This document shows, one piece after another, positions 1-53,506 of a stretch of DNA of 53,644 bases. Below the pieces are notes generated by a model. It had not been told where the DNA came from. It was given only the letters and a program-made list of their open reading frames with translations, and did not search any database. Location of the stretch: NCBI GenBank assembly GCA_017465055.1, contig JAFTWZ010000028.1:1-53644 (forward strand). Reading direction: 5' to 3'. Each line of letters begins with the position of its first letter. Position 1 is the stretch's first letter. The position numbers and the translations under genes are program-made. The stretch is from Alistipes sp. (GTDB lineage: Bacteria; Bacteroidota; Bacteroidia; Bacteroidales; Rikenellaceae).

Positions 1-380
1 CCAGACATCACACCTCGCAGGTTACTCTGCCACGCCGCGAGAATCGTCAGTAGTTTTTACAGAATATAAAAACAACAGGGAGGCGTCTCACGACGGCTCC
101 CTGCGTTCCAGAAACAAATTCTGTAAAAACTACTAACCCAAACTTAAATAAATGAAGAAACCTAACTACGTTGTCTCGTTGCCAACGTAGCTGTTAGAGT
201 TATTTGCAAAACTCATACCTAAAACGCGTGGCACAACAAAATTATTGCACGATATCGTTAATTAGCGTGATTTTGACCTATTTTTGCCATTTTCGGAGAG
301 TCTCGCTGTCGGTGTGGCTGTTGGCTATGGCAGTTTGTCGGAGAGGTGGGGCGCTCGGTGCTTTAGTGTAATGGGGGCGC
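1..380. other. Gene-free left edge
   Basis: No convincing coding region is visible in this stretch. It holds a large inverted repeat (listed separately) and a short hairpin at 166-190 with arms CTACGTTG and CAACGTAG. No tRNA or rRNA was recognised. The gene to the left of the window cannot be seen. Confidence 0.6.
50..133. repeat. Inverted repeat with nested hairpin
   Basis: Perfect 16-bp arms GTAGTTTTTACAGAAT (50-65) and ATTCTGTAAAAACTAC (118-133) enclose 52 bp. The interior holds a second dyad, CAGGGAG (76-82) with CTCCCTG (97-103). The shape suggests a cruciform, a MITE-like insertion or a strong terminator for a gene beyond the left edge. No second copy was noticed in this window. Confidence 0.6.
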
Positions 381-24779: not shown

Positions 24780-25130
24780 AGGTGCTGGAAGGGGTGAGTG
24801 TGCGCCTAAAGGCACGAAAGGGTAGGGCGCTCGCTAAGGCGAGCTTAAGAGTAGTAAAAAGAGTAGCTCGCACCTGCGGTGCTAAAGAGTAGTAGAAGGG
24901 TAGTTCGCGCCTAAAGGCGCTAAAGGGAATTTAGTGATTTTAAGGAGTTTAGCGAGTTTAGCGACAACGCCTCAACCGCACAAACCTTGCTGCACCCTTC
25001 ACTACCCTTTAGCTCGCTTTAGCGAGCGAGCTACCCTTTAGCAGGCTCTGCCTGCGAACTACTCTTTAGCGCCTTTAGGCGCGAACTACTCTTAATCTTT
25101 CACGCGCCAGCCCTCACGCGCCAGCTAAAT
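24780..25130. repeat. Composite intergenic hairpin-module repeat, locus A
   Basis: The 430-bp gap holds modules of the form AGAGTAG(T/C)TCGC-hairpin-GCTAAAG. Hairpins include GCACCTGCGGTGC, GCGCCTAAAGGCGC, GCTCGCTTTAGCGAGC and GCAGGCTCTGCCTGC. Modules in the left half run in one direction and those in the right half in the other, around a central GAGTTTAGC segment. It ends in CTTAATCTTTCACGCGC, as loci B and C do. Confidence 0.8.
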
Positions 25131-41372: not shown

Positions 41373-41738
41373 ATGAAACGAAGTACCAAAAACAAGAACC
41401 CCAATAAGGGAGGACGACCCACGAAGAAGTTGTCAGAGAAGCGCAAGTATCGAATAACGGTCAAGATGGCTACCGAAGAGTACTACGCAATGAAACTAAA
41501 AGCAAAGAATGCAGGAATTTCGGCAAGCGAGGTGGTAAGAATGGCTCTCCGAGATTGCCATATCAAGGCACGACTGACCACCGAACAAGCGGACTATATC
41601 CGTAAGCTATGCGGTATGGCTAACAACCTCAACCAACTTACCCGAAAAGCACATCGGGAAGGCGTGAGATTACATTACGGACAATGCCAACACCTGTTGC
41701 TGTCGTTGGAAACCATTATAGACCATATCAGCCTATGA
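41373..41738 (+). CDS. MobC-type relaxosome accessory protein
   Basis: A 121-residue basic protein with a ribbon-helix-helix-like core (YRITVKMATEEYYAMKLKA then GISASEVVRMALRD) and the MobC tail motif LCGMANNLNQLTRKAH. MobC proteins bind oriT and help the relaxase. Its stop overlaps the relaxase start (ATGA). Confidence 0.85.
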   Translation: MKRSTKNKNPNKGGRPTKKLSEKRKYRITVKMATEEYYAMKLKAKNAGISASEVVRMALRDCHIKARLTTEQADYIRKLCGMANNLNQLTRKAHREGVRLHYGQCQHLLLSLETIIDHISL

Positions 41739-42667
41739 TGGCGAAGATAGTCAAAGGCTCAGGAGCCAAAGGAATTGTCGATTACATCCTCGACAGTAAG
41801 AAGCAAGCAACGCTCATAGATTGTCAGGGTGTGCTGTTCAACGACAACAGCTCCATTGCTCGAAGTTTCATCGCTCAATCGCAGCTTAATCCACGAGTGG
41901 ATAAGTTCATCGGACATATATCGCTAAGTTTCTCAAAGCAGGATTTGCCACGCTTAACTGACGAACTTATGATACAGATAAGCCGGGAATATATGCAGAA
42001 GATGGGCATCCGAGATACGCAATATATCATCGGACGGCACTATGATAAGGAGCATCCGCATGTTCATATTGCCTTTAATCGGGTGGATGATAACGGCAGA
42101 ACCATCAGCGACAGGAACGACCGTTACCGCAGTGAACGCATATGCAAGGAGCTGACACGCAAATACGGGCTATACTTCGCAAACGGTAAGGAACAGGTAA
42201 AAACGCACCGACTGAAAGAGCCGGACAAGAGCCGTTACGAGATATACCAAGTTCTCAAACGGGAGGTTGCCCGATGCTCGGATTGGAACACCTTGCTAAG
42301 ACGCTTGAAAGCCGAGGGCATAGATGTACGCTTCAAGTATAAAGGAAACACCGATGAGATACAAGGCATTGTCTTTACCAAAAACAGCTACCACTTTAAT
42401 GGCTCGAAGATAGACCGCAGCTTCAGCTATTCAAAGATTGATAGGGCACTGAACTGTAATGCTCAAGAGGAAAATCAACGACATTATGAGCCTTACCATA
42501 TGCAGATAAGCCATTTCGAGAACAGAGAATCAGAGCTTATCAGCGGTTCATTAGGCTTGTTGGACTTCACCTCTTCGCCCGATGTGGATAGTCAAGAGGA
42601 GGCGGAGTTCCGCCGCTTGATACAGCAGAAGCCGAAGAAAAGAAGGTCAAGAGGAATTAAATTCTAA
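41735..42667 (+). CDS. Relaxase / mobilization nuclease
   Basis: A 310-residue HUH-type relaxase that nicks oriT for conjugative mobilization. The start MMAKIVKGSGAKGIVDYILD is followed by the three-histidine motif GRHYDKEHPHVHIAFNRVD near residue 115-133, and an ERICKELTRKYGLYF helix. The C-terminal ends in a basic tail KPKKRRSRGIKF. An earlier in-frame ATG at 41,684 lies inside mobC and was rejected. It needs a helper conjugation system, as no type IV secretion genes are in view. Confidence 0.9.
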   Translation: MMAKIVKGSGAKGIVDYILDSKKQATLIDCQGVLFNDNSSIARSFIAQSQLNPRVDKFIGHISLSFSKQDLPRLTDELMIQISREYMQKMGIRDTQYIIGRHYDKEHPHVHIAFNRVDDNGRTISDRNDRYRSERICKELTRKYGLYFANGKEQVKTHRLKEPDKSRYEIYQVLKREVARCSDWNTLLRRLKAEGIDVRFKYKGNTDEIQGIVFTKNSYHFNGSKIDRSFSYSKIDRALNCNAQEENQRHYEPYHMQISHFENRESELISGSLGLLDFTSSPDVDSQEEAEFRRLIQQKPKKRRSRGIKF

Positions 42668-42695: not shown

Positions 42696-43430
42696 ATGCA
42701 GGAAAATAACTCAATCATTATCGCAATGTTGGAAGAGTTGCTGACCATCAGCAAGAGCCAACGCACAGAACAAACAGTGACTGCCGATGTCGATTTGACA
42801 CCAATTAAGGAGCTAATCGAAACCAGTAACCGAGAGAACAAAGAGTATTATGATGCTAAATCCAATAGGTTTACTGGGGCAATAGTCAATGAACTATCCA
42901 AGATCAACAAACGAATGGATGGCTTAGAGCAACAAGAACAACCCGACTTTGAGGGTGTAAAACAGCAACTTGCAGAAGCTGTCGACAAGATGGATGAGAT
43001 AAAGGTAAAGCACAACATTGACGAAAAACGCCACTCGTTTGTGCTTTACACAAAGGAATCTTGGATTCTCCTGTCAATGTTTATTGCCGTAGTTGCAGGA
43101 AGTATTTCCACAATATGCCACTTATCAAGACCGAATGTCCAAAGGGATGATGATGCTCTGAAATATCGCTACATCAAGATGAAGGGTGATGCCTCGGCTG
43201 AGCAGATAGCGACTTTGGAGGACATCTTTGAACTCAATAGAGATAACCAAAAGATTGAGCAGATGCGTGAAGATGTTGAGACCTACGAAGAGGCTGTCCG
43301 CAAGCAAGCTGCCCTTGCCGAGCAGGCTCGACTCAAAGAGCAAGCAGCAAAGGAACAAGAATCCAAAGCCAAATCAATTAAGGCAAAGCAGGAGCAGAAG
43401 GATAACCCAAACAAGAAATCAAAACCTTGA
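42696..43430 (+). CDS. Mobilization-associated coiled-coil membrane protein
   Basis: A 244-residue protein. Charged N-terminal coiled coil (~residues 1-115), one membrane helix near residues 128-146 (WILLSMFIAVVAGSISTIC), and a very charged C-terminal coiled coil rich in Lys, Glu, Ala and Gln ending in NPNKKSKP. No enzymatic motif. It lies 28 bp after the relaxase and 4 bp before the recombinase gene, so it belongs to the mobile element. The function is not known. Confidence 0.75.
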   Translation: MQENNSIIIAMLEELLTISKSQRTEQTVTADVDLTPIKELIETSNRENKEYYDAKSNRFTGAIVNELSKINKRMDGLEQQEQPDFEGVKQQLAEAVDKMDEIKVKHNIDEKRHSFVLYTKESWILLSMFIAVVAGSISTICHLSRPNVQRDDDALKYRYIKMKGDASAEQIATLEDIFELNRDNQKIEQMREDVETYEEAVRKQAALAEQARLKEQAAKEQESKAKSIKAKQEQKDNPNKKSKP

Positions 43431-43434
43431 GCCT

Positions 43435-44634
43435 ATGGCAAGTATCAAGGTAAAGTTTCGTCCCTCGACAAGCGAGAACAATGAGGGCACAATCTACTAT
43501 CAAATCATTCAGAATCGTGTAATCCGTCAGTTAAAGACGGATTACCGACTCTTTATGCACGAATGGAATGAGGAAAGCAATGCAATAATCATTACCAATA
43601 GCAGCCGACAGGGCTATCTTCAATCCATCGAAGAGCGTATAGATTGGGATGTTAAGCGACTGCAAAGTATCATCAACCAATTAGAGAATAAGCGAGTAAA
43701 ATACTCTGCCGATGATATTATCTCTACATTCCAGAGGCAAGCCAACGAGCAATCATTATTCAATTTTATGCAGAGCGTTATTGCCCAATTGCAACAGATG
43801 GGCAAGCAACGCACATCGGAAACCTATCGTGCCACACTCAGAAGCTTTATGCACTTTCGGGAGGATAAGGATATTCTTTTGGAGGAGATAAATTCAGATA
43901 CGATGCTGATGTATGAGGCATACTTACACAATAGAGGACTAACCAAGAACACCACTTCGTTCTATATGCGAATACTCCGAGCAGTCTATAATCGTGCTGT
44001 TGAAAAGGATTTGACCACCAATCGAAACCCATTCAAGCACGTTTATACAGGCATTGATAAGACTGTAAAGCGAGCCATTCCATTGAAAGCAATCAAGCAG
44101 ATTAAGAACCTCGACCTATCGTTGCAACCTTCGTTGGACTTTGCCCGCGATATGTTCTTGTTCTCATTCTATACTCGTGGAATGTCATTCATTGATATGG
44201 CATACTTGAAGAAGAAAGACCTATCGAATGGCATACTATCGTACCGCAGACGCAAGACTGGGCAACAATTATTCATCAAATGGGAGAAGTGCATGCAAGA
44301 GATTGTCGAAAAGTACAATACGGATTATTGCAGCCCGTATCTATTACCAATTCTCAAATACCCATATGACAACCGCAGTCAATACAAGAATGTGCTGTTC
44401 AAAACCAACAAGTATTTGAAAGAAGTTGCAAAGATGGTTGGTATTTCCGTGCCATTAACCCTCTATGTCGCCCGTCATTCATGGGCAAGCATTGCCAAGA
44501 GCAAGAACATACCAATCTCGGTTATCAGTGAAGGTATGGGGCACGACTCAGAAATGACCACCCAAATCTATTTGGCATCGTTAGATAATGCCGTAGTCGA
44601 TAGAGCAAATGCACAGATATTAAAGGATTTGTAA
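43435..44634 (+). CDS. Tyrosine recombinase
   Basis: A 399-residue site-specific recombinase. The N-terminal arm-binding domain (residues 1-~100) starts ASIKVKFRPSTSENNEGTI, followed by a SAM-like core-binding domain. The catalytic domain has SFYTRGMSF (first Arg), LYVARHSWAS (HxxR region) and GHDSEMTTQIYLASL (catalytic Tyr). A longer in-frame start at 43,228 overlaps the preceding gene and was rejected. It is likely the integrase of the mobilizable element. Its stop is only 31 bp from an 18-bp inverted repeat bracketing a promoter, so it may also, or instead, act as an invertase. Confidence 0.9.
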   Translation: MASIKVKFRPSTSENNEGTIYYQIIQNRVIRQLKTDYRLFMHEWNEESNAIIITNSSRQGYLQSIEERIDWDVKRLQSIINQLENKRVKYSADDIISTFQRQANEQSLFNFMQSVIAQLQQMGKQRTSETYRATLRSFMHFREDKDILLEEINSDTMLMYEAYLHNRGLTKNTTSFYMRILRAVYNRAVEKDLTTNRNPFKHVYTGIDKTVKRAIPLKAIKQIKNLDLSLQPSLDFARDMFLFSFYTRGMSFIDMAYLKKKDLSNGILSYRRRKTGQQLFIKWEKCMQEIVEKYNTDYCSPYLLPILKYPYDNRSQYKNVLFKTNKYLKEVAKMVGISVPLTLYVARHSWASIAKSKNIPISVISEGMGHDSEMTTQIYLASLDNAVVDRANAQILKDL

Positions 44635-44664
44635 GATAATGGGATGTTTAGCAAAATGGATGTT

Positions 44665-44853
44665 CTCTATGTAAGAGATACTTAATTTACTGCAAAATTA
44701 CGCAAAATAAAGCAACTATCACCATTTTAGAGCCAATAAAAGCACTCTGCGATGCTATAAAGCATATAATTGTTTAGCAAAATAAGGATTTAATATTCAA
44801 ATAAGGACTAATTCTCAAGCACTTCCATCTGCCATAGTATCTCTTACATAGAG
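44665..44853. promoter_or_regulatory. Putative invertible promoter element
   Basis: Perfect 18-bp inverted repeats CTCTATGTAAGAGATACT (44,665-44,682) and its complement (44,836-44,853) enclose 153 bp without a gene. Each arm contains the dyad CTCT-ATGTA-AGAG, as expected for a tyrosine-recombinase core site. In the present orientation the plus strand inside has no TTTG at all, while the minus strand has one TAATTTTG box (44,693-44,700). After inversion that box would lie about 40 nt upstream of the first restriction-modification gene. Confidence 0.7.
44693..44700 (-). promoter_or_regulatory. Promoter -7 box inside the invertible element
   Basis: TAATTTTG on the minus strand, just inside the left repeat arm. 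As sequenced it points leftward into the end of the recombinase gene (the OFF state for the restriction-modification operon). No good -33 box was found, so promoter activity is uncertain. Confidence 0.45.
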
Positions 44854-44872
44854 AGGATTAGCAAGATGGAAT

Positions 44873-45535
44873 ATGAGTCAAATTAAGTCTAAAGAAAGAG
44901 TTGCACAGCGAGGTGAGGTGTTTACCGCAGAGCGTGAGGTAAATGCTATGCTCGACCTTGTGGAGAATGAGTGTCTGCGACCCGATTCCCGATTCTTGGA
45001 GCCTGCTTGTGGTGATGGAAATTTCCTTTCTGCCATTCTCAAACGCAAACTCGCCGAGCTGAGAAGAAAATACAAGAAGAGCCCTCGTGACTACGAAAAG
45101 CAAGCTATCGTAGCCATAGGAAGCCTTTACGGAGTGGATATAATGAACGACAATGTAATTGCTTGTCGTGAACGCCTCTTCGCCATTTGGGACGAGGAAT
45201 ATACAGCCCATTGTAAGGCAGAAGTGTCTGACGAGGCTCGCGAGGCAGCCAAGTTTATCATCAGTCGAAATATCATCAACGGAAATGCACTAACACTGAT
45301 GTGTGTCGATGCCGAAGGTAACGACACCTCTGCTCCTATTGTATTCTCCGAGTGGACGCTTATCGGTGGCACTCAGATGCAACGCTCCGACTATACAATG
45401 TCCGACCTTCTTCTATACAACGACAGTAGCGAGGGCAATCTGTTCGCTCTTACTAAGGAGCAAAAGGAAGAGGGCGGAATATTCCTAAGAAGATATATTA
45501 CTCACTATAAAAAGGTTCAGGATTATGGAGAATAG
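44873..45535 (+). CDS. DNA methylase-like subunit 1 (restriction-modification)
   Basis: A 220-residue protein. RGEVFTAEREVNAMLDLV is followed by the SAM-binding motif I FLEPACGDGNF (residues 41-51) and a motif II-like GVDIMNDNV. No NPPY catalytic motif is present, so alone it is probably inactive, or it is a specificity/cofactor partner of the next protein. It overlaps the next gene by 11 nt. Its start lies 20 bp after the right arm of the invertible repeat. Confidence 0.78.
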   Translation: MSQIKSKERVAQRGEVFTAEREVNAMLDLVENECLRPDSRFLEPACGDGNFLSAILKRKLAELRRKYKKSPRDYEKQAIVAIGSLYGVDIMNDNVIACRERLFAIWDEEYTAHCKAEVSDEAREAAKFIISRNIINGNALTLMCVDAEGNDTSAPIVFSEWTLIGGTQMQRSDYTMSDLLLYNDSSEGNLFALTKEQKEEGGIFLRRYITHYKKVQDYGE

Positions 45536-47078
45536 TTTGTTTCAAAGCGTCTATAATCCCGACGTGCTTTCGTGTATCGCCAACTTGAGTAACGATGAGG
45601 TGTTTACTCCTCCCGAATTGGCGAATAAGATTATTGATATGCTCCCGCAGGAGTTGTTCGAGAATCCCGACACCACATTCCTTGACCCTTGTTGCAAGAG
45701 CGGTGTTTTCTTGCGTGAGATAGCGAAACGACTAATCAAAGGACTTGAACAGCAGATACCCGATCTTGAAAAGCGTATAGAGCATATCTTCTCAAAGCAA
45801 CTCTTTGGTATAGCCATTACGGAGCTTACAAGCCTGCTTTCTCGCCGAAGCGTATATTGCAGTAAATATCCGAGCGGAGAATTTTCGGTATATCAATTCC
45901 CCGAAGATAAGCCACAAGGAAATATCATATTTCAGCGTATCAAGCACACTTGGGACAATGGCAAATGTATCTATTGCGGTGCTTCGCAAGGTGAGTACGA
46001 TCGTGGGGCTGAACTTGAAACCCACGCTTATCAATTTATCCACAACTTAGATGTAAACAAAGTATTCAATATGAAATTCGATGTGATTATAGGTAATCCG
46101 CCATACCAACTAAGTGACGGAGGAGCGCAAGCTAGTGCAAAGCCGATCTATAACTTATTTATAGAGCAAGCAATGAAACTTAATCCTCGTTATTTGACTA
46201 TGATTATTCCTGCAAGGTGGTATACTGGCGGTAAGGGGTTGGATGCTTTTCGTGACAAAATGATCAATGATAAGCGTATACGAGTATTACATGATTATGC
46301 TGATGCATCCGAATGTTTTAGTGGCGTTGAAATTAAAGGTGGTGTATGTTATTTCCTATGGGATAAGCAGTATTCTGGAGAATGTGAAATATACAAACAC
46401 AAAGGTAATGAGATTGAAAAATCACAAAGATATCTGGTTGAAAAGGGTGAGACTATTTTTATTCGAGAAAATAAACTTATCTCTATTATGAGAAAAGTGT
46501 GGACTAACAATGATATTGAGAAAGAATCCTTTGAGACTATTGTATCTTCTATGAAACCATATGGACTGAGAGGAGATTTCTTTAAAGATCCATCGAAATA
46601 TGGTTTGCCTCCAATAAAAGATGTGCCATCTGATGGAGACTTAAGAATATTAGGATTAGATGGATTGAAAAGAGTATATAGATATATACCTCAAGATTAT
46701 CCACTGCCCAAACGAGACCTCCTAAATGATTATAAGATTTTTATTCCACGAAATGTTGGTAGTGGTGAATTTGGTGATTTTACGCCGACAACGGTTGTTG
46801 CCTCACCGAAAGACCTATGTACTGAGACATTCGTTCAAGTAGGTCCATTTCATTCTATGAATGAGGCTAATAATGCAGACAATTATCTCCGTACAAAATT
46901 CTTTAGAGCTTTGATAAGTATAAGGAAACAAGACCAAGGTGCCTCAAAAGCTGTTTATCATTTTGTTCCTATTCAAGATTTCTCTAAGTCTTGGACTGAT
47001 AAGGAATTGTATGAGAAGTACAATTTGACTCAAGAGGAGATTGAATTTATTGAATCTATGATAACCTCAATGGAGTAA
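45525..47078 (+). CDS. N6-adenine DNA methyltransferase subunit 2 (Eco57I/TaqI-like)
   Basis: A 517-residue protein. EVFTPPELANKIIDML precedes a motif I-like TFLDPCCKSGVFL (residues 51-63), where the usual Gly-rich loop is altered. The catalytic NPPY is at residues 191-194. A CIYCG pair near 148-152 with downstream His may bind zinc. A target-recognition-like region follows (LDGLKRVYRYIPQDYPLPKRD). It probably works with subunit 1 to modify adenine at the site cut by the third protein. The middle part is more AT-rich than the ends, which may reflect exchange of recognition modules. Confidence 0.85.
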   Translation: MENSLFQSVYNPDVLSCIANLSNDEVFTPPELANKIIDMLPQELFENPDTTFLDPCCKSGVFLREIAKRLIKGLEQQIPDLEKRIEHIFSKQLFGIAITELTSLLSRRSVYCSKYPSGEFSVYQFPEDKPQGNIIFQRIKHTWDNGKCIYCGASQGEYDRGAELETHAYQFIHNLDVNKVFNMKFDVIIGNPPYQLSDGGAQASAKPIYNLFIEQAMKLNPRYLTMIIPARWYTGGKGLDAFRDKMINDKRIRVLHDYADASECFSGVEIKGGVCYFLWDKQYSGECEIYKHKGNEIEKSQRYLVEKGETIFIRENKLISIMRKVWTNNDIEKESFETIVSSMKPYGLRGDFFKDPSKYGLPPIKDVPSDGDLRILGLDGLKRVYRYIPQDYPLPKRDLLNDYKIFIPRNVGSGEFGDFTPTTVVASPKDLCTETFVQVGPFHSMNEANNADNYLRTKFFRALISIRKQDQGASKAVYHFVPIQDFSKSWTDKELYEKYNLTQEEIEFIESMITSME

Positions 47079-47082
47079 TACA

Positions 47083-50016
47083 ATGGAACACAACTTCTTT
47101 CCCCAACGCCCTGCAATTACTCCAACGATTTATACTTATCGCTTACCGGGAGTAGATTCGCACAAAGGATATCTGAAAGTCGGCTACACAGACCGCACTG
47201 CAAAAGAGCGTATTGAAGAGCAACTGCATACAAGCAAGATTGCCTATGAAATTGTATTGGTCGAGTCGGCAATGACCAATGACGGCTCTTGTTTTACAGA
47301 CAAGGACGTGCATAGACTCCTTGAGCGAAAAGGTTTCAGGCGTCTCAATCCACTTGACAAAACAGACGAATGGTTTAGGTGTACCGTTTCGGATGTGATG
47401 GCTGCTATATTGTCGCTCCGTACAGGGACTGACAATGTAGAGAACAGAACGCAGAATTTCACTATGCGCCCGGAGCAGTTTCGTGCAGTTGAGCAAACAA
47501 AATCCTATTTCGAGCAGGCATTGAAAGAAGAGCCTAACCGCATACCCAAATTCCTATGGAATGCCAAGATGCGTTTCGGAAAGACCTTTGCGTCGTATCA
47601 GTTGGCAAAGAAGATGGGCTTGTCGCGCATATTGATTCTTACATTCAAGCCCGCAGTTGAATCGGCTTGGAGAGAAGACCTTGTATCGCACATCGACTTT
47701 GAGGGGTGGCAATATATCTCCAACAAAGATGCCCGAAACAACAATCTGAATATCGACCAAGAGTTCAGCAGAGCGGACAAGTCAAAGCCTATTGTTGTGT
47801 TCGGTTCGTTCCAAGATTTGCTCGGCACAAACGAGAGTGGCGGTATCAAGACCAAGAACGAATTTATACACACCACAAATTGGGACTTAGTAATCTTCGA
47901 TGAATACCATTTCGGTGCTTGGAAAGAGCGAGCAAAGGAGTTGTTTGAGAAAGAGGATGAAGAAAACACTGTGGATTTTGATGCCGAGAAATACAAGAAA
48001 GATGAAGCGAGCAACGCCATTAACGAAACATGGTTGCCAATATCCACACGCTACTATCTCTTCTTATCGGGCACACCATTCAGAGCAATAAATAATGGTG
48101 AGTTTATCGAGGAACAGATTTTCAACTGGACTTACTCTGACGAGCAACGAGCAAAAGCGGAGTGGAAAGGTAGCGGTAATCCTTACCTCGCTTTGCCACG
48201 AATGGTGATGCTTACCTACCGTATGCCCGATGAAATACAGGAGGTAGCCAAACAAGGCGAATTTGATGAGTTTGACCTCAATTTGTTCTTTGCAGCAGAG
48301 GGCAAAGGCGAGTTTGCAAGATTCAAATATGAGAATGAGGTGCAAAAGTGGTTGGACCTTGTTCGTGGAGCATATTTGCCTGCAAGCATAGATGACTTGA
48401 AATTGGGGCAAGACAAGCGACCACCAATGCCATTCAGCGATACACGATTGCTGAATGTACTTTCGCATACACTGTGGTTCTTGCCAAATGTAGCCTCTTG
48501 CTTTGCTATGGCCAATCTGCTTGCACAACGGCAGAACAAGTTCTACCACGATTACAAAGTTGTGGTATGTGCGGGAACAGCAGCCGGCATTGGCTTGGAT
48601 GCTTTACACCCTGTGCAGGCGAATATGGGCGACCCACTCACGACAAAGACAATCACGCTCACTTGTGGTAAACTGACAACGGGTGTTACTGTCAAGCCAT
48701 GGACGGGTATATTTATGCTCCGCAACTTGAAAAGCCCCGAAACATATTTCCAGGCTGCTTTCCGTGTACAAAGCCCGTGGGAGGTAAAGAACGAAGAGGG
48801 AAGCAAGACCATAATGAAGAACGAGTGTTATGTGTTCGACTTCGCTCTTGACAGAGCTTTACGCCAAATATCGGATTACAGTTGCCGCTTGGATATAAAC
48901 GAAAGTAACCCCGAAGCAAAGGTCGGTGAGTTCATCAAGTTCTTGCCCGTACTGGCTTACGATGGCAGCAGTATGAAGGAGGTCGATGCACAGGACATTC
49001 TTGATATAGCTTTAGCAGGTACATCAGCTACTCTGTTGGCGAAACGATGGGAATCAGCATTACTTGTCAATGTGGATAACGATACGCTGAAACGCCTACT
49101 TGCAAGTCCGGAGGCAATAAAAGCATTGATGAACATTGAAGGCTTCCGCAACCTCAACAGCGACCTAACCACCATTATCAACAAATCCGAAGCAGTCAAG
49201 AAGGCAAAGAAGGAGAATCCTAATCCTACGCAAAAGGAGAAAAAGGAGATATCCGATGAGGAGAAGGAGATGAAGAGCAAACGCAAGCAGATTCAAGAGA
49301 AACTGATAAAGTTTGCAACTCGCATTCCTGTCTTTATGTACTTGACCGACTACCGTGAGCGATGCCTAAAAGATGTTATCACCCAATTGGAGCCGGGACT
49401 ATTCAAGAAAGTTACAGGCCTAAGCGTTGAGGATTTCAATATGCTATGCTCGCTCGGTGTGTTCAATGCACCGCTAATGAACGATGCAATCTTCAAATTC
49501 AAACGCTACGAAGATGCCAGCCTTACATATACAGGAATCAACAAACATACAGCCGATGAAGTCGGTGGTTGGGACACAACCATACGCAGAACGCAGTATG
49601 AAAAGTTGTTCTATAATCAGCAATCTTCAATGAGTGAGGTTGATTATAGTTCGTATTCAAAAAGTAGCGAGCCTGCCGAAAACAAGCGTGCAGAACAGCA
49701 AAGAACGGCTGTTAAAGTGGAACAACCTCAACCAAAGTCCGATGTTCAACCACAACCTGCAAGGTCAGCAGCACCTTTATCGCCAACACCATCTGTTGCC
49801 TCCAATATAGCTGAAATTGACCTCAAAACTCAATTAGAAACATTGGCAGTGGATAGCATTGTTCTACACAAGAAATTCGGCAAAGGTACAGTTGTCAAAA
49901 TCAACAAGAACGAAAAGTTTATCCATATCAAATTCACCCTTGGTGAAAAGAAATTTATCTTCCCCGATGCATTCCTAATGGGATTCTTGGAGGTAGAGTG
50001 TACCCTTCCCTGTTAG
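47083..50016 (+). CDS. GIY-YIG (T5orf172-like) nuclease - SF2 helicase restriction protein
   Basis: A 977-residue protein. Residues ~14-110 resemble a GIY-YIG/T5orf172 nuclease (TYRLPG, KGYLKVGYTDRTAKERI). Residues ~130-620 are a superfamily 2 helicase: Walker A AKMRFGKT (161-168), DEYH (273-276), LFLSGTPFRAI, and a motif VI-like YFQAAFRVQSPW. A long helical region follows, then a Pro/Gln linker (~870-905) and a C-terminal Tudor/SH3-like end (KKFGKGTVVKINKNEKFIHI). It is the likely restriction subunit of the three-gene operon. The stop codon lies 2 bp before the IS3-family element, so the last residues may not be native. Confidence 0.82.
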   Translation: MEHNFFPQRPAITPTIYTYRLPGVDSHKGYLKVGYTDRTAKERIEEQLHTSKIAYEIVLVESAMTNDGSCFTDKDVHRLLERKGFRRLNPLDKTDEWFRCTVSDVMAAILSLRTGTDNVENRTQNFTMRPEQFRAVEQTKSYFEQALKEEPNRIPKFLWNAKMRFGKTFASYQLAKKMGLSRILILTFKPAVESAWREDLVSHIDFEGWQYISNKDARNNNLNIDQEFSRADKSKPIVVFGSFQDLLGTNESGGIKTKNEFIHTTNWDLVIFDEYHFGAWKERAKELFEKEDEENTVDFDAEKYKKDEASNAINETWLPISTRYYLFLSGTPFRAINNGEFIEEQIFNWTYSDEQRAKAEWKGSGNPYLALPRMVMLTYRMPDEIQEVAKQGEFDEFDLNLFFAAEGKGEFARFKYENEVQKWLDLVRGAYLPASIDDLKLGQDKRPPMPFSDTRLLNVLSHTLWFLPNVASCFAMANLLAQRQNKFYHDYKVVVCAGTAAGIGLDALHPVQANMGDPLTTKTITLTCGKLTTGVTVKPWTGIFMLRNLKSPETYFQAAFRVQSPWEVKNEEGSKTIMKNECYVFDFALDRALRQISDYSCRLDINESNPEAKVGEFIKFLPVLAYDGSSMKEVDAQDILDIALAGTSATLLAKRWESALLVNVDNDTLKRLLASPEAIKALMNIEGFRNLNSDLTTIINKSEAVKKAKKENPNPTQKEKKEISDEEKEMKSKRKQIQEKLIKFATRIPVFMYLTDYRERCLKDVITQLEPGLFKKVTGLSVEDFNMLCSLGVFNAPLMNDAIFKFKRYEDASLTYTGINKHTADEVGGWDTTIRRTQYEKLFYNQQSSMSEVDYSSYSKSSEPAENKRAEQQRTAVKVEQPQPKSDVQPQPARSAAPLSPTPSVASNIAEIDLKTQLETLAVDSIVLHKKFGKGTVVKINKNEKFIHIKFTLGEKKFIFPDAFLMGFLEVECTLPC

Positions 50017-50053: not shown

Positions 50054-50326
50054 GTGTCTATGAAGAGAAGTGTACACACAGAAAGTGAAATGGTAAAGGC
50101 AGTCCAGGAATTGGAAAGCGGAATTGATGCAGAGACAGTAGCTCGTAATCATGGTATTTCCAAAGCGACCTTGTACAATTGGAAGAGCAAGTACAGTGGC
50201 ATGGACGTAAGCCAAGTAAGGCGTTTAAAAGAACTGGAAGAGGAGAACCGCAAGTTGAAGCAGATGTATGCTGAGCTGGCGTTAGACAACAAGATTCTAA
50301 AGGACGTCATAGAAAAAAAGCTCTAG
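50054..50326 (+). CDS. IS3-family transposase OrfA
   Basis: A 90-residue protein with a helix-turn-helix (ETVARNHGISKATLYNWKSK) and a C-terminal leucine zipper (LKELEEENRKLKQMYAELAL). Near its end is the slippery site A-AAA-AAG (50,314-50,320). A -1 shift there joins the frame of OrfB and makes the OrfAB transposase. Confidence 0.9.
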   Translation: MSMKRSVHTESEMVKAVQELESGIDAETVARNHGISKATLYNWKSKYSGMDVSQVRRLKELEEENRKLKQMYAELALDNKILKDVIEKKL

Positions 50327-50403
50327 AGCCCGAGGTAAAGAAAGAGCTGGCCGACGAAATTGTAAAGGAGTATGACATAAGCATTTCTCGGGCGTGTAAA
50401 CTG

Positions 50404-51138
50404 ATGGATATTCACAGATCCTACTTTTACTATACGGAAAAGAAGGATGATAGTGAGGTTGAAGCAGCAATACGAGAAGCTGCAGAGTTTGGAGATGGCT
50501 TTTGGAAGATTTATCAACGTCTTCGCCGAGAAGGTCATCTATGGAACCATAAGAAAGTGTATCGTGTGTACAAGCAGATGCATTATGAAAAACGCAGCAA
50601 ACTCAAAAAGCGTTTACCGGCACGCGTAAAAAGCCCATTAGTAATACCATCAGAACCTAATATCACATGGTCAATAGACTTTGTGAGTGACAAACTACAT
50701 AGCGGAAGGACTTTCCGTGTACTTAATATTATTGATGACTGTGACAGAGTAGCTGTAGGACAGGAAATTTCAATGTCCATGCCAGCAGAAAGAGTCATTA
50801 AGTTGCTTGAAAAAGTGATATGGCTTCAGGGGAAGCCGAAAAACATACGATGTGACAACGGACCGGAATTCATATCCAAAGTATTCCAGGAGTGGTGTAA
50901 AGGCAACGATATAAATGTAATCTATATCCAGCCGGGACATCCAACGCAGAACAGTATCATTGAACGCTTTAATGGCAGTTACAGAAGAGCTGTGCTGGAT
51001 GCCTATATCTTCAGGACCTTACAGGAAGTAAGAGATCTGACAGATGCATGGATGACAGACTATAACGAATGCCGCCCTCATGAATCTCTGGATAATATGA
51101 CACCGATGGAATATCGCCAAAAGAAAAAAGCATGTTGA
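50404..51138 (+). CDS. IS3-family transposase OrfB (DDE domain)
   Basis: 244 residues are shown from the first ATG, but the frame is open back to 50,320, where the -1 frameshift from OrfA enters. The DDE triad is visible: Asp in WSIDFVSD, Asp in IRCDNGPEFIS, Glu in QNSIIERFNGSYRR. The frame is intact, so the element may still be active. Confidence 0.9.
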   Translation: MDIHRSYFYYTEKKDDSEVEAAIREAAEFGDGFWKIYQRLRREGHLWNHKKVYRVYKQMHYEKRSKLKKRLPARVKSPLVIPSEPNITWSIDFVSDKLHSGRTFRVLNIIDDCDRVAVGQEISMSMPAERVIKLLEKVIWLQGKPKNIRCDNGPEFISKVFQEWCKGNDINVIYIQPGHPTQNSIIERFNGSYRRAVLDAYIFRTLQEVRDLTDAWMTDYNECRPHESLDNMTPMEYRQKKKAC

Positions 51139-51444: not shown

Positions 51445-53506
51445 TTATAGTACTCTCATTAATATCTTTCTATACTCCTCTTTTTCTGTGACTGATTCAA
51501 TCTTATTGTACTCATTAATTGCAGACAACAACATTTTGCTATCTTTGAACTGAGAAGAAGTATACTTTAATAATATTAGTTTGTCAAATATATTTAACGA
51601 AGATGACCTTACTAATTCTCCAAAACCTGTTGTATTAAAAGGTGTATCGGGATTGAATGAAAAATGAATCCGATTATAATTATGCTTTATCCAATATAAT
51701 ATATTTTCATTCACAACTCCTTTGGTAAAAAGATTTGACAAGGCATATATTATGGCTCTATTTAGTCTTATATGGGTTGCCCAGTGAATTGTATCATAAT
51801 ATTTCATTAATAAATCTAATTCATCATTGTTATGAATTATTATTTCTTTAGATTCAGTACTGATTGCAGATATTACTATATCGCAAAATGGGATAATTGT
51901 ATGAGTATGTATGCCAAAGTATGGTTCTAATTTTTCACAAGTAAAAGGATAATCAATAATATCAATATTCCCTTTATGATCTATTGCATATAACAATTCA
52001 TTACCTTTCTTTTTGTAAATATCTATACCATTAAAAGTGATAATTGGATAATCTTCTAAGCCTAATGACTTATAATAATCAAGTTTTTCTATGTGATTTT
52101 CTATTCGACTCAAATCAAAACTAGGATAACTTGTTTTGACAGCATCATAATATGCTCTAATATTATCTATATCTCCCATTCCCCATGAAAATACATAGAA
52201 ATCAATAAGATCTTTCTTTATTCTTGGGTCAGTAATTAAATTTATAGATAATAGCCATGCTTCTAAATCCTCTTTAAAACAACAACTATATTGTGTTGGT
52301 AAATGACCTTCGTATTTTTGTGAATATGAAGGGGAATTTATGTAATTAACAATCTCATTACGAAATAATTCAGTCTTGACTATATCTGCAACAGGTAAAA
52401 CTGTACTATAGTGGAACATATGAGATTTTATCTCATCTTGATCTGATTCTAATATCCTTATTAAACTGGTATGTACAGCTGAAATGTTAGAAGCCCCCAT
52501 AAGGATACGAACAAGTCTTTGAGATAGTATTGAAGATGGGTCAGATTGTAATATGTCAAATATTCGTTCTAGTAAATAATTTTGATATCCATTTGTACCT
52601 AAAAGCAACGTAATACAGTTTTCATCTATAAAAGAAGTGTGGAAGTCTATACTTTCATCTTTCACAGATAATAAACGATTAAAAATTTCATCAATGATGT
52701 TTTTAAGTACATCAAATTCTATTTCCATATCATCGCTTAGTATCTGACACACAAGATGTAAGCGACGATTTATTTCTGGTAGTAGTTCTTCTGTCTTTAA
52801 AATATCTGTAATAAACTTTGTTGCATTACTACGTCCTAATCTACCTGATTCTTTTATCTTAAATAATGATGCAGTCAATTTAATAATTTCTGTCCAATTC
52901 GAATTATAAATATAATCATTCAAACTTAAGCTACCTTCTTTCCATTTTGTGTTAAATTCAATGGCCGCAAAGTATTCTTGAAAAGTTAGGTGCACAAAAC
53001 CAAACAAAGCTTCTCCATTTTCAGCAAATCCTTTCTCAAATAGAAATCCAGCATCTTCCCTCAAAAATGAAATAATATCATTGACGTCTTGTTTCAATTC
53101 CTTTTGAGGCATATAAGGATATATCTTCGAGTATTCATTAGTAAGCATTTGGGTTAACTCTTTTTCAGGAATTAAACCAGATGAATAATGCTCATGAATA
53201 TGAAAGGCGATTATGGCTAATAGCTCAATAAGAATTTCTCTATCAATATTATTTTTTTGATTAGCTCTAAGTTTAACCCAATTATCCAGCAGTGTTGATG
53301 TTGCAACTTCATATAGTGCTACTCGTTTTTCTGGCAATTTACTTCCTTGATAATATATTAATGCAATAATGGTTATCAATAGGGGATTTTGTGCCAGTCT
53401 GTATACAGATTTATTTTGCTTTATAGAACGGTATAATTTTCTTGCTTCTTCTGTAGCATTTTCAAGATTATTATCTGAATACGAAGATATTGACGAATAC
53501 CAATTA
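51445..53506 (-). pseudogene. NACHT/STAND-type ATPase, 5' part missing
   Basis: The frame is open upstream of the first usable start (TTG at 53,379) and reads NWYSSISSYSDNNLENATEE, then RLAQNPLLITIIALIYYQG, the end of a NACHT ATPase module. GFVHLTFQEYFAAIEFN follows, the typical winged-helix end of STAND proteins. The remaining ~500 residues are a repeat-like, helical sensor region. The P-loop and Walker B parts are missing, because homology stops at about 53,507, where an IS-like end begins. Intact relatives are often phage-defence NTPases. This copy is probably inactive unless its 5' part resumes beyond the window. Confidence 0.75.

Follow-up and report, generated by a model that had tools for sequence, protein, structure and literature searches.

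What controls a restriction-modification (RM) operon that lies behind a tyrosine recombinase gene and a short inverted repeat? Restriction systems are barriers to phages and gene transfer, and an RM system entering a new host must avoid cutting its unmethylated DNA. The window analysed here, a stretch of 53,644 nucleotides from Alistipes sp., carries such an arrangement. The gene order on the plus strand is MobC/NikA, relaxase, p244, recombinase, repeat with its segment, MT1, MT2 and RE3:

41373..41738, plus strand: MobC/NikA-like mobilization protein gene (Pfam NikA-like 6.1e-14, MobC 6.3e-08)
41684..42667, plus strand: relaxase gene (Pfam Relaxase 6.8e-40)
42696..43430, plus strand: p244, a 244-aa accessory gene whose stop lies 4 nt before the recombinase start
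43435..44634, plus strand: tyrosine recombinase gene, presumed invertase (Pfam Arm-DNA-bind_5, Phage_int_SAM_5, Phage_integrase)
44647..44655, plus strand: outer copy of TTTAGCAAA, 17 nt before the left arm; motif shared with several related loci
44664..44682, no strand: left inverted-repeat arm with core CTCT-ATGTA-AGAG (repeat search and shuffles)
44683..44835, no strand: candidate invertible segment of 153 bp (repeat search, segment alignments)
44693..44700, minus strand: putative promoter -7 box TAATTTTG, facing the recombinase (OFF; motif scan)
44773..44781, plus strand: inner copy of TTTAGCAAA, inside the segment
44836..44854, no strand: right inverted-repeat arm (repeat search)
44873..45535, plus strand: MT1, methylase-like subunit with a conserved SAM-binding-type motif and no NPPY (weak MTase matches)
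45525..47078, plus strand: MT2, predicted Eco57I-type adenine methylase, variable at residues ~291-517 (Pfam Eco57I 6.3e-37)
47083..50016, plus strand: RE3, predicted GIY-YIG-type (T5orf172/MUG113) nuclease domain plus SF2-type helicase (Pfam MUG113, T5orf172, ResIII)

IS3-family transposase genes (50054-51138) follow directly after RE3 at the operon end. The window also encodes a 644-aa protein next to an insertion sequence (51445-53379, minus strand), which has no Pfam, PADLOC or NCBIfam match, and an 837-aa protein that consists largely of WD40 repeats in a bacterial genome (33041-35554).

The region between the recombinase gene and the RM operon is intergenic and contains a perfect 19-bp inverted repeat with 153 nt between its arms. 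The left arm begins 29 nt past the recombinase stop, 18 nt separate the right arm from the first operon gene, and the inner dyad of the arms reads CTCT-ATGTA-AGAG. The preliminary description had placed a perfect 18-bp repeat with an inner CTCT/AGAG dyad around 153 bp directly after the recombinase gene; the position, perfection, spacing and dyad stand, and the length is corrected to 19 bp. The repeat exceeds chance expectation. In 100 dinucleotide shuffles of the whole window, searched for perfect repeats with 20-500 nt between the arms, the longest repeat was 15 bp, and 0/100 shuffles reached 19 bp. A longer perfect repeat of 26 bp is also present in the window (24900-25089, arms 138 bp apart), and a repeat alone is therefore insufficient as evidence. 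This 26-bp repeat was considered as a second switch and rejected; it is built of G+C-rich repeats and is located between a PCMD-domain gene and a HAD-hydrolase gene in an intergenic position, and a scan of its neighbouring genes revealed no recombinase gene. Another perfect inverted repeat, of 17 bp with 52 nt between its arms, lies at the start of the window (49-134).

What does the segment contain? A motif scan identifies a single TAnnTTTG inside the repeat, TAATTTTG, which lies on the minus strand at a distance of 10 nt from the arm; the plus strand has none, just as the preliminary description had stated. When the segment is mirrored (x to 89518-x), the box moves to 44818-44825 on the plus strand, leaving a gap of 47 nt to the ATG at 44873, in line with the earlier estimate of about 44,818-44,825 and some 48 nt. 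The locus thus shows three features of an inverton: inverted repeats that bracket a short intergenic segment, a site-specific recombinase in cis (the tyrosine recombinase gene 29 nt away) and a TAnnTTTG-type promoter inside the segment that is able to face the operon once inverted. We propose, at a probability of roughly 0.85, that the segment is an invertible promoter for the RM operon and that the operon is OFF as sequenced. This central claim of the preliminary description is supported because the recombinase, the arms, the segment length, and the position and context of the box fit a large family of recombinase-adjacent repeats.

In the proposed mechanism, the recombinase, with its arm-DNA-binding, SAM-like and catalytic domains, would exchange strands within ATGTA, the 5-bp spacer of each CTCT-N5-AGAG core, and thereby flip the segment. 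In the OFF state, the single Bacteroidales-type promoter would fire to the left and enter the recombinase gene from its 3' end, leaving the RM operon without its promoter. In the ON state after inversion, the TAATTTTG box would lie 47 nt before MT1 and drive MT1-MT2-RE3. We infer inversion at the window locus, the recombinase as its agent and the activity of the promoter from this arrangement and its relatives. TTTAGCAAA may be an accessory (arm-type) site that binds the arm-binding domain of the recombinase, and several relatives have the same motif 16-19 nt ahead of their arm. Folding of the 5' leader gives nothing unusual (z 0.50).

The related loci come from recombinase searches of three sets: 393 genomes of the order, of which 29, including the source genome, had matches with E-values no higher than 1e-100; 200 genomes of the family, with 67 at 1e-80 or lower; and viral contigs, with 6 loci. 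A repeat scan behind the fetched recombinases covered 67 loci, one of which (L126) lacks the recombinase, and 37 of the other 66 were picked by eye. Loci without a plausible repeat were dropped, as were L114 (a different long repeat), L090 and L091 (copies of L092), and L130 and L131 (arms 292 and 257 bp apart). Four loci (L171, L172, L179 and L180) were added to the 37 picked, and the near-copies L096, L099, L172 and L180 were left out, which gives 37 segments counted.

The promoter geometry is a conserved property of this family. An outward TAnnTTTG ending 3-20 nt from the arm is found in 29/37 dereplicated segments, compared with 1.44 expected from dinucleotide shuffles. The eight segments without an outward box in this range include G021 and L179, both of which carry the operon studied here. 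The segments also share a context upstream of the box, with T at -7 to -4 and AAAT at -27 to -24 as the commonest letters. The repeats behind related recombinases are 11-29 bp long with arms 134-225 bp apart, and they start 2-42 nt from the recombinase stop at 30 of the 35 measured loci and 59-114 nt from it at the other five. CTC[CT]-N5-[AG]GAG is present in 25/37 left arms with 20 different spacers and is absent from the remaining 12. These sequences suggest that the recombinase family may use a fixed half-site with a locus-specific crossover. Behind the same repeat and promoter geometry, non-defence cargo is also found, including DUF3575, NusG-type and TonB-type genes. Repeats of at least 13 bp precede six relatives of MT1 (L176, L186, L195, L200, L228 and L267) without a recombinase and without a TAnnTTTG inside; therefore, not all such repeats are switches.

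What is the relation of the switch to the mobilization genes? MobC, relaxase and p244 are located directly upstream of the recombinase at 12/12 recombinase loci with DNA-modification defence cargo (the window, G021, G183, L171, L172, L179, L180, L095, L096, L098, L099 and L093), and p244 is found at 0/58 other recombinase rows, a contrast in which the label 'defence' was assigned after the cargo had been seen and the p244 search profile was built from the same loci. Some of these 70 rows are near-identical. For most loci, the cargo class rests on the Pfam matches of the first gene, and several first genes have none, so some of the 'other' loci could conceal unrecognised defence genes. Four of the 58 have a relaxase (L135, L143, L146 and L154); L135 has MobC and relaxase without p244 and ends in the arm, with no cargo assigned. 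The recombinase frame is open over its full length at 11 of the 12 MobC-relaxase-p244-recombinase loci, and in G183 it is cut by the contig end.

p244 itself, which has no Pfam match, was considered as a switch-specific gene, and this idea had to be narrowed. Its relatives occur at 23 places in 18/393 genomes. Of these places, 17 were new; retrieval of their sequences recovered p244 at all but one (L323), and of the 16 recovered, 14 have the relaxase and 0 have this recombinase. The mobilization genes are therefore a general platform, and the recombinase-promoter unit is an optional part of it. In G292, a third such mobilization module is followed by SspBCD-PbeA genes (L308 5296-12740), which are preceded only by a plain TAACTTTG box; this module lacks both a recombinase and an inverted repeat of the type described here.

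The presence of an integrase-like protein with an arm-DNA-binding domain beside a relaxase and MobC could also mean that the recombinase is the integrase or excisionase of a mobilizable element and that the repeats are part of its attachment region, with no promoter switch. However, the stretch scanned upstream of the recombinase contains no such relaxase at 54 of the 58 non-defence loci, and many of these loci keep the repeat and promoter geometry. Furthermore, the repeats are inverted and one segment length apart and are not direct repeats at element ends. We regard the integrase explanation as very improbable and retain the invertible promoter.

Does the segment flip? Related loci that carry other operons include two pairs of related segments in opposite orientation (L139 versus L141 and L137 versus L092), a sign of inversion, and the segments of the group L095/L096/L098/L099, as well as those of the window and G021, are in the same orientation. 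Among the loci of the three-gene operon, every readable segment is OFF (7/7: the window, L171, L172, L179, L180, G021 and G629); a search for the opposite orientation gave five homologues and one locus of the same genus (G629), all OFF like the window, and no ON copy of this operon was found among the readable loci. L095, L096, L098, L099 and L093 are also OFF, which brings the readable defence loci to 12/12 OFF; G183 is unreadable. These 12 differ from the 12 loci of the p244 linkage in that they contain G629, whereas the latter contain G183. In the wider family, 25 of the 29 segments in which boxes were placed face the recombinase and four face the operon (binomial p 0.0001, with loci treated as independent, which they are only partly), and five of the 12 readable OFF defence loci are also counted among the 25. 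G021 was considered as an ON copy through a plus-strand TAGTTTTG and rejected because its aligned segment has the same orientation as the window and the box is 48 nt from the arm. In the viral contigs, the exact arm has 0 matches, and the flipped-junction pattern has one match, in unrelated coding sequence. Four viral contigs carry the arm of the other clade.

The uniform OFF orientation is the main result against a freely flipping switch and fits an OFF-biased or a locked switch. In the locked case, the locus would be a former switch, and its RM genes would be silent or only read through from the mob-recombinase operon. Both uniform counts are in keeping with such a loss of function, as are the missing exact box in G021, L179 and L180 and the lack of a terminator-like site before the operon. 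However, the arm spacers differ between genomes and agree within each genome, with ATATA in both arms of G021 and ATGTA in both arms of L179, a locus of the cultured carrier Phocaeicola faecicola AGMB03916, and this agreement is what continuing exchange would require. The recombinase frames are also open in L171, L172, L179, L180, G021 and G629, which is not the picture expected of a locked switch. Contig ends may also point to inversion. The left arm terminates contigs G314:C1 and G511:C1. A third contig, G183:C13, has this very operon with an MT1 of 92% identity and starts exactly at the right arm, which speaks against locking. These three ends in an arm compare with ~0.14 expected over 60 fetched regions by a rough estimate. 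An assembly can break at an arm when both orientations coexist, and other causes of such breaks exist. The partner arm was not found elsewhere in the G314 and G511 assemblies, and the contig-end argument therefore stays indirect. We consider a permanently locked segment unlikely and favour an invertible promoter with an OFF bias.

The surroundings of the segment suggest how the operon may be transcribed in the OFF state. With just 4 nt between the p244 stop and the recombinase start, the recombinase is probably made together with the mobilization genes. The RM operon lies on the same strand, with 238 nt from the recombinase stop to MT1, and no terminator-like site separates the two (44400-45100 scanned); therefore, some read-through is possible in the OFF state, which may leak. 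An extended version of this argument holds that read-through from the mob-recombinase operon mainly drives the RM genes and that the inverted promoter only modulates them. However, across the family the box keeps both its place beside the arm and its surrounding sequence, which indicates that a promoter able to face outwards is under selection, and a merely modulating role strikes us as improbable beside an invertible promoter that switches the operon.

Since the OFF promoter faces the recombinase gene without a terminator-like site in between, an active promoter would be expected to transcribe that gene in antisense, and such transcription could stabilise the OFF state. We can take this one speculative step further to a transfer-coupled, self-silencing defence switch, in which flipping would be tied to transfer of the element, given that the recombinase is the last gene of the mobilization operon, and the OFF promoter would hold the OFF state by antisense transcription into the convergent recombinase gene, reached ~50 nt beyond the expected antisense start. 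If true, the restriction cargo would reach a new, unmethylated host silent and would be ON in a minority of cells only. This scheme would account both for the 12/12 readable defence loci in the OFF orientation and for the coupling of p244 and recombinase that is found here only with DNA-modification cargo. We nevertheless rate it as rather doubtful.

Is the switch bound to one restriction system? In the recombinase tree, 11 of the 12 defence loci fall into two separate subclades of four and seven. Recombinases that are 92-96% identical head three different cargos in the larger subclade. The first is the three-gene system (G021, L179 and L180). The second consists of a 344-aa gene, which lacks NPP[YFW] as MT1 does, and a 1316-1318-aa helicase-methylase (L095, L096 and L099) whose N-terminus resembles that of RE3 by eye. 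The third is a PLD-type helicase with an Eco57I-type methylase (L098). G292 contains two copies of the switch (L098 and L099) with the same arm core, ~309 kb apart and with two different restriction systems downstream, and recombination between the two copies is conceivable. Conversely, the recombinase is upstream at only 4 of 80 genome-contig loci of MT1 relatives (L171, L172, L179 and L180; some loci have no upstream DNA), so the operon usually lives without the switch. L175, L177 and L178 carry the three-gene operon with more than 6 kb upstream and have neither the recombinase nor the repeat. These comparisons suggest that the switch is a mob-linked unit with changing DNA-modification defence cargo, and we infer its mobility from them.

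The genes of the operon resemble a Type II/IIG-like RM system with a helicase. Is the first gene a methylase, as had been claimed? MT1 is methylase-like and keeps a conserved FLEPACG-type motif, which we take to be SAM-binding motif I. However, none of the 81 sequences of the MT1 family has NPP[YFW], and a conserved P-I-x-F-x-E-W is found near the place of NPPY. Because of this absence in 81/81 sequences, MT1 is probably not a working methylase but a catalytically silent, methylase-like partner of MT2. MT1 relatives occur widely and reach far outside Bacteroidales, as in a Lactococcus plasmid in which MT1 is followed by a 1461-aa Eco57I-domain protein. MT2 provides the NPPY of an adenine methylase (present in 75/76 sequences) and a variable part; relative to the window as reference, 11 homologues are 76-87% identical over residues 1-290 and 31-58% over residues 291-517, and residues ~291-517 are likely the target-recognition region. 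In the nuclease domain at the RE3 N-terminus, Y17, R43 and E96 belong to the columns that show at least 95% conservation across 66 sequences, and these three are presumably the catalytic residues of a GIY-YIG-type nuclease. No solved structure matches MT1, MT2 or RE3 by sequence. A function of MT1-MT2-RE3 in DNA cleavage and methylation is presumed. In G183:C13 (L126 36-866), an MT1 homologue with a broken frame lies beside MT2 and RE3 homologues with long open frames.

How does the locus compare with known systems? Phase-variable type I RM shufflons of Bacteroides are reportedly described by Ben-Assa 2020. In B. fragilis, the tyrosine recombinase Tsr19 is linked to the invertible promoter of the large capsule, and TAnnTTTG is named as the promoter consensus (PMC3090145). 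The window matches this layout of a known Bacteroidales invertible promoter, as the preliminary description had claimed, with a tyrosine recombinase and an invertible promoter ahead of an operon (PMC3090145). Unlike the B. fragilis invertons, the candidate switch in the window has restriction genes as its cargo, and its recombinase is the last gene of a mobilization operon. Alteration of RM systems by inversion is known from the consulted parts of the literature mainly as hsdS shufflons (PMC3090145, PMC5729914, review PMC12632263). The window resembles the type I RM shufflons of Bacteroides in that a site-specific inversion would alter an RM system; however, shufflons swap hsdS specificity parts, whereas inversion in the window would turn a promoter and leave specificity untouched (PMC3090145, PMC5729914). 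The repeats lie in the intergenic region before MT1 and not inside hsdS genes, and no hsdS family is among the matches of the operon genes.

Mobile elements provide further parallels. In the IP-ARG systems, invertible promoters drive antibiotic-resistance genes on Bacteroidales integrative conjugative elements, with a highly variable cargo region (hotspot) directly downstream and invertases that are >96% identical with different cargo (PMC8748976). The window would share with IP-ARG a mobile element, an adjacent invertase, an invertible promoter and variable downstream cargo (PMC8748976). However, the IP-ARG elements are conjugative and carry genes for resistance and glycan synthesis, frequently together with upxY (PMC8748976), whereas the window carries a DNA-modification defence behind MobC, relaxase and p244. 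Since the variable IP-ARG cargo is in print, the idea that cargo is exchanged behind a mobile invertible promoter already exists. In hCom2, the invertons of group 145 are enriched near tyrosine recombinase, relaxase and MobC genes, as in the window, and spread by transfer has been suggested; unlike the window, the enrichment concerns inversions overlapping hsdS genes, and the part of the paper that we draw on describes no promoter switch of a GIY-YIG-helicase/Eco57I RM system (PMC11892184). No description of a mob-linked promoter switch before a GIY-YIG-helicase RM system was found in the open literature searched, a scope that does not extend to Jiang 2019 and Ben-Assa 2020. Invertible promoters, inversion-controlled RM systems and invertible promoters with variable cargo on mobile elements are known for Bacteroidales, and the RM-carrying, mob-operon-linked, uniformly OFF form is a variant that is new within the literature searched.

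The mob-linked, putatively flippable unit, with its several cargos and its OFF orientation in the assemblies read here, suggests that some annotated restriction systems of gut Bacteroidales are silent in most cells. If so, surveys of methylomes or phage resistance that rely on genes only would overcount active systems. The unit also offers a clean way to ask whether RM systems overcome the difficulty of establishing themselves through phase variation.
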